IMG/VR virus record: IMGVR_UViG_3300037481_000188
Location: 1-35,575 of that record
Length of the DNA stretch: 35,575 nucleotides
Origin: a virus
Strand: one strand, 5' to 3'
Notes under the pieces: generated by a model
Told to the model about the DNA's origin: nothing
The model's database searches: none
What the model saw: the letters and a program-made list of their open reading frames with translations, nothing else
Shown: one piece after another, positions 3,764-17,316 of the stretch
Numbering within the stretch: position 1 is the first letter of the stretch
Layout of the letters: every line of letters begins with the position of its first letter
Program-made: the position numbers and the translations under genes

Positions 3764-4157
3764 TTGTTTCAAAGCCTGTGAGCCACTCAACAGTTGCCCT
3801 GATGCTTTCTTGATTCTTGTGCCTCCTGCTTACCCCGAAGATTCAATTATCCTTAACATCAATAAGCCAGGAGTGAATGCTCGAATTACTCAGCAGCTTG
3901 AGATTGATTACTTGGGATATGTTGAGATTGACTTAGCAGGCTGTCCTGATGGATTTTTCAATCCTTATGGCGGACAATATGAGTTAGTGTTCATAAATCC
4001 CACCAATCAAAAGGTTTATGAGTTCACTGCTGTTGATGGCTTAATCTACTCAAGCATTTGCTTTAGTTTTGCCCCTACTTATCGAAATGATGAAGGCATC
4101 AATGAGGTAATTCTAAACATATTCAACGATTTAATCCCTGACCCATATTATGTATGA
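3744..4157 (+). CDS. Hypothetical cysteine-rich-start protein, 137 aa
   Basis: A 137-residue protein of unknown function, starting 20 bases inside the terL end. The N-terminus contains five cysteines within about 18 residues (MAQCCSNCFKACEPLNSC). The rest is predicted beta-rich (ILNINKPG, YVEIDLAGC, YELVFINP), as in small virion or tail-associated proteins. No signal peptide is seen. A TAATTTTG box at 3703-3710, inside terL, could drive it. Its stop overlaps the start of the following membrane-protein gene. A structural role is suggested only by location. Confidence 0.75.
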   Translation: MAQCCSNCFKACEPLNSCPDAFLILVPPAYPEDSIILNINKPGVNARITQQLEIDYLGYVEIDLAGCPDGFFNPYGGQYELVFINPTNQKVYEFTAVDGLIYSSICFSFAPTYRNDEGINEVILNIFNDLIPDPYYV

Positions 4158-4540
4158 TGAACTCACTGCTTCCTGTGGTGGCAAGCGCAGAGGCTGTTGC
4201 CTTATCGAGCTGCCTAAGCCTGCTGACATTGACAATGATTGCTCTGATCAGTGCAGCTTTTTCCTTGTTCTTGGATTATCTGCTGGACGATCATCCACTT
4301 GGGCAGTGGTATCTGTTCCAAATTCAGAAGTTGCCGACTTTGTGGGCCAAGCCACTTGGTGAATGTCCTTACTGCTCAGGAGCATGGCAGTTCCTCGTTA
4401 TCTCTTGTCTAATCTTTAACCAACCGTTTTATCTATGTTCAATTTTCTTAGGCGCAAACCATCTGTTTCTGCTCCTCCTGTCCCTGATGCAGAAACGAAT
4501 GTTGTCTCTCATCCGGAAAAACCAAGGTATCAGGGAGTAG
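4154..4540 (+). CDS. Membrane protein with CPYC motif
   Basis: A 128-residue membrane protein. Hydrophobic segments cover about 15-45 and 78-115. Between them lies a soluble stretch with KPLGECPYCSGAW, a pattern recalling DUF1360-type membrane proteins (GE-CPYC-x-G-x-W). Similar small membrane proteins are common between terminase and tail genes in Bacteroidota phages. That is from general knowledge, not a search. The two starts (ATG ATG) overlap the previous stop, and the 3' end overlaps the next gene by 106 bases. A second open frame (4150-4362) runs in parallel. I prefer this one because of the hydrophobic pattern and the motif. Confidence 0.65.
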   Translation: MMNSLLPVVASAEAVALSSCLSLLTLTMIALISAAFSLFLDYLLDDHPLGQWYLFQIQKLPTLWAKPLGECPYCSGAWQFLVISCLIFNQPFYLCSIFLGANHLFLLLLSLMQKRMLSLIRKNQGIRE

Positions 4541-5184
4541 CCCCGAAAGACAGATGGGATCAGATTGAGTATGCCTTCACTTCAGGAGGTGTCAAATACT
4601 TTAAATTCGTATCTGAGGTTAATGTGCCTTTTCAACGGGCAGTAGCTGCCAGGGATATTTTTACCGAGGAACTTTGGCAGATTAATCCTGACTACCTAAG
4701 AGGCTGGAACAATGGCCTTATCAATCTTCTGATGGACAAGAAGAAGAAGGATGATAAAAAGCTTTATGAGGTTGGTGTGATGGCCTCAAGGCTGAAGGAG
4801 CAGATGGAGATGTCTGTGAGCCTGCTCAGGCAGTTAAAGCTTGCAACAGTTGTGTACTTCGATGAGATTGAGAACCCACTTGACTACCAGTACCCATACA
4901 ACAAGAGCAAGCTTGAGCATTGGATGAAGTCCAATGATGTAGAAGGTTTTTTTTTGAATCTGCCGGAGTACGCTTATCTGCCCTCTTTGACAGAATACAG
5001 CATGAATTTTCCGACCTATTTGCAAGCAGAAACTCTCCAAAGCCTAAACAACCTGAAGCACATTATTGGACTTCAATTATCAGACAGCACAGACAGCGAT
5101 TTGCTGAAGTCCTTAGAATCGCAAGTGGAGATGCTTACAGAGCTAAATTCCTGGTCGAAAGGCCAATCTATGAGTACTATCTAA
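4435..5184 (+). CDS. Tail assembly chaperone-like protein, 0-frame product
   Basis: A 249-residue protein directly upstream of the tape measure gene, the usual place for tail assembly chaperones. After a proline-rich start it has APKDRWDQIEYAFTSGG and a helical centre rich in Lys and Glu. At codons 171-174 the gene runs through nine consecutive T (4947-4955). After this point the same bases can be read in the -1 frame as a 92-codon extension with no start codon of its own. The 0-frame product continues 77 codons past the slip site, longer than usual for such short forms. Which product is functional, or whether both are, is not decided by sequence. It overlaps the membrane-protein gene by 106 bases. 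Confidence 0.7.
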   Translation: MFNFLRRKPSVSAPPVPDAETNVVSHPEKPRYQGVAPKDRWDQIEYAFTSGGVKYFKFVSEVNVPFQRAVAARDIFTEELWQINPDYLRGWNNGLINLLMDKKKKDDKKLYEVGVMASRLKEQMEMSVSLLRQLKLATVVYFDEIENPLDYQYPYNKSKLEHWMKSNDVEGFFLNLPEYAYLPSLTEYSMNFPTYLQAETLQSLNNLKHIIGLQLSDSTDSDLLKSLESQVEMLTELNSWSKGQSMSTI

Positions 5185-5231
5185 TATATTCGACTTGGAT
5201 AACTGAGCAGAAGTCTAAAAGAGCTAAGTAG
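4953..5231 (+). CDS. -1 frameshift extension of the tail chaperone (fusion product about 265 aa)
   Basis: This open frame is -1 relative to the gene starting at 4435. It is open from 4938 and ends with TAG at 5229-5231. It contains no ATG, GTG or TTG codon, so it can only be reached by a ribosome coming from upstream. The run of nine T at 4947-4955 gives a T TTT TTT slippery heptamer in the correct phase. The extension reads like real protein, with FDRIQHEFSDLF, HYWTSIIRQHR and FLVERPIYEYYLIYSTW. The last element resembles C-terminal parts of tail chaperone G-T products. The expected fusion is 173 + 92 residues. An alternative is a one-base length error in the T run, which would make the extension the only 3' part. 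Confidence 0.65.
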   Translation, partial: FESAGVRLSALFDRIQHEFSDLFASRNSPKPKQPEAHYWTSIIRQHRQRFAEVLRIASGDAYRAKFLVERPIYEYYLIYSTWITEQKSKRAK

Positions 5232-5264: not shown

Positions 5265-5293
5265 AAAGAGCCTCCCAAATTGGGGGGCTTTTT
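5265..5293 (+). terminator. Rho-independent terminator after the chaperone gene
   Basis: The arm AGCCTCCC (5269-5276), loop AAATT and arm GGGGGGCT (5282-5289) form a GC-rich stem with one G-T pair. It extends by flanking A-T pairs into a TTTTT tail. It lies between the frameshift extension stop and the tape measure gene. Confidence 0.88.
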
Positions 5294-5297
5294 ATAT

Positions 5298-5305
5298 TAA
5301 CTTTG
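5298..5305 (+). promoter_or_regulatory. Putative -7 box for the tape measure gene
   Basis: TAACTTTG matches the Bacteroidota -7 consensus TAnnTTTG exactly. It sits right after a terminator and 16 bases before the tape measure ATG. The -33 box is weak: the closest TTG is only 15 bases upstream. Confidence 0.42.
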
Positions 5306-15510: not shown

Positions 15511-17316
15511 ATGGAGGAGTTAATTGGACAACTATTTTCAACCCTCATGGACAGACAAATCCGTGAGGGCAAACTTGAGTACATTGAATGTGCGAGAGAA
15601 AAGGCTGAGGAGCTTGAGTATCACTTCGAAAATGAGTATCCAACTAAACTCCTCCATACTCAACATCCTTCTGAAGAGCCTTGGATGAAGGACTATAGAA
15701 GGCAGAGATGGCAAGCACCAACAACCACAGCCACAGGCAGAGTCTTTAACTTCTTGCAGAAGATTCAGCAGGCTGATGACTTTAAGATAAGCTTTGAAAG
15801 TGACTATCAGAAGACAGGAGTTGCTGAGAGGATAGGCTTGCAGGATAACACATTGCAATTCTATGTTGAAAATAATCTGCCAAAGTTTGGCAGCCTTGAG
15901 ACATGGTCTTTCAATGTTTTTCTTAAGACCTACCTTCAGGATGCAAATGCAATTGTTGCAGTTCTGCCTAATTATGATGAGTTCATCAAGAACCCAGCAG
16001 GGGTTACAACCTTAGACTGGCTAAAGCCTTACCCTCAGACAATCTTCTCAGAAGACTTGATTTTTGAGGAGGAGACTTTTGTCATCATAAAAGTTGAGGA
16101 TTATGAGGACATGAATCGCAAGAAATGGGATCAGTTTCTCTGCATCACAATGGAGGGCTTAGTCCTATTCAGGCAAGTCAATCAGTACACTTATGACAAT
16201 CCTTTTCAGATATTCATTCTGCCTTACATCTTCACCTATCTGCCTGTCATCAAGGTTGGCTCTGTAATCTATGAGGAAGAAGATGGACATTTGGTTTTTG
16301 ATTCAGTTCTTGCTCCTTGTCTGCCTGCTTGGAATGAAGTATTATTTCGGACAGATGACCTAAACATCTTATGGGCTACTCATGCTCTGCCTCAGAAGTG
16401 GGCATTAAAGATGAGTCCTTGTAAGACCTGTAATGGCACAGGACAGAGGACAAATCGCAAGGAGGAGAGAGTTGGCTGTAATGATTGCCAAGGCTCAGGA
16501 AGAGCCTCAAGCAGTCCATTTGGCCTGATGGAGATTAACATTGACAGAGTTTCAGCTGTTAATCCTAATCCACTTGTTCCACCAGTGCCTCCGGCTGGAT
16601 ATATTGAAAGACCTACTGAGACAGTAAGACTATTCCAGGAGGACATCCTTCAGAAAGAATTTCAAGGCTTTAAAGCCATTGGCTTGGAATTGCTTGGTCA
16701 GATTCCAGCTTCTCAATCAGGGATTGCTAAGGAGTATGATAGAAAGGAACTAAACACCTTCTGCTATTCAGTGACTGTTCACTTGGCTCAGGTTTACAAT
16801 AAGGTTTGCTTTCACATCCTTTATCAAAGGTACAACAGCCTCTTTGCTTCCTCTTTGATGGACAGCGACAAAGTCAAAGCAGCATTGCCACAGATTACTG
16901 TGCCTACTGACTTTGATGTCATGACCACAGACATGATTGGTGAGATGCTGACCAAGGCAAGACAGGGTAATTTTGACCCTCTGATTATCTCAGGCATTGA
17001 AGATGATTATGTTGAGAAGCTTTATGGCGAGAACTCAATCCAGCAGATTTACCTAAAGATATTGAAGCAGCTTGATCCATTGCCATACAAGACAATTGAT
17101 GAAAAGACACTTCTGCTCAATAGCCAAGGATGCACACTGCAAGATTATGTTTTAAGTGCTAACCTTCCGGCCTTTGTGATGCAGCTTGTGGACAATGATG
17201 CTACCTGGTACGATAAGCCATTCAACATCCAACGCATGCAAGTAGATGCAATGGCAGCTGCCAAGGTTGCTCAGATTAGGGTTGCCTCTGTTCCAATCAT
17301 GCCTGAAGGAATGTAA
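15511..17316 (+). CDS. Portal protein with embedded DnaJ-type zinc finger
   Basis: A 601-residue protein assigned as portal from its size, overall helical and acidic pattern, and the MuF gene directly after it. The clip/wing region contains two CxxCxGxG motifs: CKTCNGTG (Cys304, Cys307) and CNDCQGSG (Cys323, Cys326). These are the same repeats found in the DnaJ central zinc domain, enough to bind one zinc. Downstream are a proline-rich linker (NPLVPPVPPAG) and a long helical stem-like segment (QEDILQKEFQGFKAIGLELLGQ). The stop overlaps the MuF start (TAATG). No Walker or nuclease motif is present. Confidence 0.75.
   Translation: MEELIGQLFSTLMDRQIREGKLEYIECAREKAEELEYHFENEYPTKLLHTQHPSEEPWMKDYRRQRWQAPTTTATGRVFNFLQKIQQADDFKISFESDYQKTGVAERIGLQDNTLQFYVENNLPKFGSLETWSFNVFLKTYLQDANAIVAVLPNYDEFIKNPAGVTTLDWLKPYPQTIFSEDLIFEEETFVIIKVEDYEDMNRKKWDQFLCITMEGLVLFRQVNQYTYDNPFQIFILPYIFTYLPVIKVGSVIYEEEDGHLVFDSVLAPCLPAWNEVLFRTDDLNILWATHALPQKWALKMSPCKTCNGTGQRTNRKEERVGCNDCQGSGRASSSPFGLMEINIDRVSAVNPNPLVPPVPPAGYIERPTETVRLFQEDILQKEFQGFKAIGLELLGQIPASQSGIAKEYDRKELNTFCYSVTVHLAQVYNKVCFHILYQRYNSLFASSLMDSDKVKAALPQITVPTDFDVMTTDMIGEMLTKARQGNFDPLIISGIEDDYVEKLYGENSIQQIYLKILKQLDPLPYKTIDEKTLLLNSQGCTLQDYVLSANLPAFVMQLVDNDATWYDKPFNIQRMQVDAMAAAKVAQIRVASVPIMPEGM

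Follow-up and report, generated by a model that had tools for sequence, protein, structure and literature searches.

The window analysed here is a 35,575-nucleotide stretch of viral DNA. On its plus strand lies a gene for a putative tail assembly chaperone, whose 0-frame product has homologues over its full length (74–94%; 51–92% in a wider set), and directly downstream lies the gene for a tape measure protein (Table 1). Within the first gene is a run of nine T's, read in frame 0 as GGT TTT TTT TTG, and two reading frames stay open beyond it. Frame 0 continues for 76 codons to a stop at 5182–5184. The −1 frame, whose product includes the peptide FLVERPIYEYYLIY, continues for 92 codons (4953–5228) and contains no ATG, GTG or TTG; upstream, its openness reaches back only to 4938. 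A slip after the second TTT would give a protein of 173 + 92 = 265 aa that has its front 173 aa in common with the 249-aa product.

Table 1. Coordinates of features at the frameshift gene and its downstream neighbour.
Feature	Position	Strand	Remarks
0-frame gene, 249 aa, putative tail assembly chaperone (G-like isoform)	4435–5184	+	homologues over full length
T9 run	4947–4955	+	last two T's encode Leu (frame 0) and Phe (frame −1)
Slippery heptamer T_TTT_TTT	4947–4953	+	in phase with frame 0; TTT in both P and A sites
Tail in frame −1 (92 aa), accessible only through the slip	4953–5231	+	stop TAG 5229–5231; purifying selection
Dual-coding region, 76 codons	4954–5181	+	purifying selection on both frames
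Possible hairpin after the slip, weak (TCTGCCGGAG...CTCTTTGACAGA)	4957–4994	+	lacks conservation; strong form confined to a minority clade
Intrinsic-terminator-like hairpin and T run, after the −1 stop	5269–5293	+	from sequence; same arrangement in relatives
TAACTTTG, promoter-like TAnnTTTG element	5298–5305	+	24 nt upstream of the ATG of the tape measure gene
Tape measure protein, 822 aa	5322–7790	+	phrog_18891 E 1.2e-59; Pfam TMP_3 E 9e-31

The first-pass annotation had proposed a programmed −1 frameshift at this T run, giving a 249-aa and a roughly 265-aa protein with two long C-termini encoded by one stretch of DNA. The phase of the run, the 92-codon frame without a start codon ending at 5231 and the two predicted sizes are all borne out by the sequence. 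Moreover, comparative genomics strongly supports both the programmed recoding and the two overlapping C-termini.

Given the 0-frame peptide and the codon usage of the phage, the −1 frame was open in 8e-5 of simulations, in which 7.7 stops were expected on average. Because it is also open in all 130 distinct relatives, chance openness of the −1 frame is excluded. Codon-usage likelihoods are about the same in the two frames (−4.11 and −4.07), against −4.82 in the third.

The relatives, all of them metagenomic contigs, were gathered by peptide-pattern scans of IMG/VR, and the family is present in many metagenomes. Several of the scans queried the pre-slip part only, so that the state of the two tails was not selected for in those. 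With duplicates removed there were 131 distinct slip contexts, with identities in the common part as low as 58% and falling into 32 groups at 85% nucleotide identity. We found no DNA or protein match among 50,697 records of named phages, and no relative in the bacterial genome collection.

Both frames remain long across this set. After the slip, none of eight consecutive 10-codon blocks contains a −1 stop in any of 130 sequences; the 10-codon block just before it contains 171. The nearest upstream −1 stop lies 2–6 codons from the slip in 126 of these 130, and a −1 start codon is absent in 127, on which ground internal initiation in the −1 frame was rejected. The comparative data have likewise already refuted the idea that the overlap is a product of sequencing or assembly error, and together these two readings retain practically no weight. 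Single-base indels near the site do occur in two contigs (L172/L225 and L384), but T9 and both open frames recur in well over 100 independent assemblies, and the indels themselves look like assembly faults. L384 carries a one-base deletion upstream of an unchanged T9. An extra base after the slip in L172/L225 (around 938–981) switches which frame is continuous; we considered a natural in-frame fusion here and rejected it, as L226/L327 has an identical tail without the extra base and a chimeric assembly is the most likely origin.

To measure constraint, substitutions were reconstructed by parsimony on 91 gap-free sequences. In the overlap, changes that are silent in both frames had a relative rate of 12.4, those silent in frame 0 alone 1.42, those silent in frame −1 alone 1.15 and those silent in neither 0.35. 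Before the slip, the same classes gave 3.65, 3.42, 0.12 and 0.23, as expected where only frame 0 is coding. Binomial tests after the slip indicated purifying selection on frame 0 (p ~1e-38) and on frame −1 (p ~1e-25), values that are generous in that events in related sequences were treated as independent; the same tests gave no signal of purifying selection on the −1 frame before the slip. On these sequence comparisons, both protein ends are preserved by evolution in a large group of uncultured phages.

These rates bear on the proposal that only one tail is functional, either because a lambda-like chaperone carries a non-functional 0-frame extension or because the −1 frame is spurious. Such a proposal would agree with the measured known cases, in which the 0-frame extension after the slip is short. 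However, the substitution classes show each frame to be constrained given the other, and the 0-frame tail, counted from the Gly codon, is 79 codons long in 104 of 131 contexts and 70–88 in the other intact ones. A single functional tail is therefore already disfavoured, and we regard it as very unlikely.

At the slip site, independent assemblies support nine T's as the length of the run: the 131 contexts read GGTTTTTTTTTGA in 125 cases, GATTTTTTTTTAC in 2 and GATTTTTTTATTC in 3, the remaining one being L384. Neither a run of eight or ten T's nor a homologue that uses one frame without a slip site, the outcomes that would have told against the first-pass annotation, was found, the two indel contigs being the only irregularities. 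Seven T's are present in 131/131 contexts and are in phase in all but L384. T9 is present in 127 of the 130 intact contexts and T7 followed by A in the other 3 (L330, L419/L333 and L450/L343; three sequences, one group); the feature common to all 130 is T_TTT_TTT in the 0-frame phase. The heptamer is constrained beyond the amino acids it encodes. Among the first 73 sequences the slip codons are invariant (4/4), against 2 of 81 upstream degenerate codons with invariant residues, and the heptamer outlasts codon changes: where Gly GGT has become Asp GAT at the slip, the silent third-base T is retained. Because one clade has T7 only, the functional unit is probably the heptamer T_TTT_TTT and not nine T's as such; dual coding suffices to explain the final two T's of the run.

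Nine T's also raise the question of which machine slips. RNA polymerase could add or drop T's on the run, and ordinary translation of the altered messages would then yield the −1 tail. In bacteria, RNA polymerase does slip on stretches of 9 A or T, so that T9 is of classical length for this (PMC5009743), and all nine T's are kept in 127 of 130 intact contexts. A stimulator of ribosomal slippage, moreover, was searched for and none was found: RNAalifold, applied to pseudoknot-free pairing, gave no consensus pairs after the slip, no structure peak was found at the slip, and a strong hairpin is present only in a subclade (L227, z −3.07). Against polymerase slippage, the three T7-then-A contexts retain both long frames and the in-phase heptamer, dual coding explains the last two T's, and messages one T shorter would meet a stop at once. 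T9 itself suits either machine. Ribosomal slippage is favoured because the T7 clade keeps both long frames, and we judge slippage by the polymerase to be distinctly unlikely.

The neighbourhood of the gene points to its probable function. The Pfam TMP_3 match of the downstream product scores 107.5 bits against a cut-off of 41, and a tape measure homologue lies directly downstream of the frameshift gene in 115/115 testable relatives (those with enough sequence). Between the terminator-like hairpin and the tape measure gene sits TAACTTTG. The TAnnTTTG element, which we take to be the −7 element of Bacteroidota promoters, occurs within 80 nt upstream of the tape measure start in 102 of 113 relatives (5 of 113 when shuffled), mostly at a distance of 24–27, or 12. 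Because this element is conserved before the tape measure start, a Bacteroidota host is likely for these phages.

The identification of the gene as the phage's tail assembly chaperone, also proposed in the first-pass annotation, stands in part. What we infer from position and recoding agrees with chaperones of the lambda G/GT type: its immediate downstream neighbour is the tape measure gene, and an in-phase slip (130/130 intact contexts) joins a 0-frame ORF to an overlapping ORF that lacks a −1 start in 127 of 130. Similarity searches gave no such agreement. Neither product has a Pfam, PHROG or PDB match, and a Foldseek search covering the protein apart from the −1 tail found none either. A first AlphaFold model was poor (pLDDT 40); a model from a wider alignment reached pLDDT 69.6 and is mainly helical, without a fold match. 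Known tail assembly chaperones share little sequence among themselves.

The two-tail recoding could accordingly be real and the protein something other than a tail assembly chaperone, an option that gains from the lack of any family, PDB or fold match and from the unusual order of the genome (1966–18185, plus strand), which runs from terminase genes to tape measure and tail genes with a portal-like gene only at 15511, downstream of the tail genes. We consider it unlikely, as the gene is always directly before the tape measure gene, like the frameshifted chaperones of lambda, P2 and HK97.

We propose, and think it probable, that ribosomes shift by −1 within this gene and so produce two isoforms of a tail assembly chaperone that differ in their C-termini. 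From one start at 4435, two proteins would be made. Most ribosomes would stay in frame 0 to 5184 and produce 249 aa; a minority, with tRNA-Phe occupying both the P and the A site, would slip back by one base on U_UUU_UUU and continue in the −1 frame as far as 5231, producing 265 aa. Residues 1–173 would be common to both, and C-terminal tails of 76 and 92 residues would come from the same DNA. Against this, a review reports U_UUU_UUU to be much less shift-prone in E. coli than A_AAA_AAG (Atkins et al., PMC5009743). With the chaperone role assigned by position before the tape measure gene, the isoforms would function in the manner of lambda gpG and gpGT. In that phage, it is the shared part to which the tape measure protein binds, while the tail tube protein binds to the −1 part (PMC5009743). 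By analogy, a similar division is likely here: handling of the tape measure protein would fall to the common part, and recruitment of the tail tube protein to the −1 tail, the less abundant of the two.

Comparison with the three phages for which the distance was measured (lambda, P2 and HK97) shows where this gene departs from known chaperones. Lambda G/GT also lies directly before the tape measure gene and uses a −1 slip to make a minor, longer isoform, but its GGGAAAG slip site is 5 codons before the G stop, so that GT is G plus an extension. P2 E/E+E′ also slips by −1 on a U-rich heptamer (TTTTTTG) before its tape measure gene T, but only 6 codons separate the slip from the E stop, and we detected no sequence similarity to the gene described here. 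In HK97, the chaperone gp13/gp14 is likewise made with a −1 frameshift and encoded ahead of the tape measure gene, from which a small moron separates it; about 6 codons lie between its putative slip and the gp13 stop. In our gene, by contrast, dual coding is conserved over 76 codons beyond the slip. With 76 codons instead of 5–6 between slip and stop, the frameshift would replace one tail by another, and not add one as in gpGT.

This long, conserved dual-coding stretch is what appears to be new here. Recoded tail chaperones are widely conserved. We found no paper on a long dual-coding chaperone overlap in the open-access literature, a scope in which a similar published phage could be missed, and none there on frameshifted tail chaperones in Flavobacterium phages. 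There is a parallel with transframe overlaps of the potyvirus P3N-PIPO type in eukaryotic RNA viruses, in which a slip opens a second frame inside a coding region that continues, giving dual coding (PMC5009743); viruses and machinery are different, however, and the overlapped frame there is part of a polyprotein.

How the two tails arose can be considered from the simulations. With the −1 peptide fixed, the chance of an open frame 0 is 0.078, higher than the 8e-5 for an open −1 frame with the 0-frame peptide fixed; this hints weakly at the −1 tail having come first and the 0-frame tail having been overprinted later. A tentative scenario, which we hold to be possible but somewhat short of probable, is that of a tail-swapping frameshift: an ancestral stop just past the slip would have been lost, the 0-frame tail overprinted, and both tails would now be essential, so that a single dual-coded stretch yields two similarly sized chaperone isoforms in phages whose hosts are Bacteroidota, which use little Shine–Dalgarno signalling.

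The conserved stretch of 70–88 dual-coding codons offers a natural test of how a single DNA sequence can accommodate the evolution of two protein domains, and of whether a frameshift may select one of two tails instead of appending one. In addition, it provides a −1 recoding site from phages whose hosts are probably Bacteroidota, a group in which signals of this kind have received little study. Gene callers would call frame 0 only, and the −1 tail is therefore probably absent from the annotations of these genomes.

A second long dual-coding pair lies upstream on the same strand. A 70-aa ORF (4150–4362), which carries an SCGGKRRGCC motif, is overlapped in another frame by a 128-aa ORF (4154–4540). 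Both are conserved, and parsimony counts show both frames to be constrained (p 1.6e-15 and 6e-73). The 128-aa ORF also extends 106 bases into the frameshift gene (4435–4540), where the upstream ORF is clearly constrained and the start of the frameshift gene weakly so (p 0.02).
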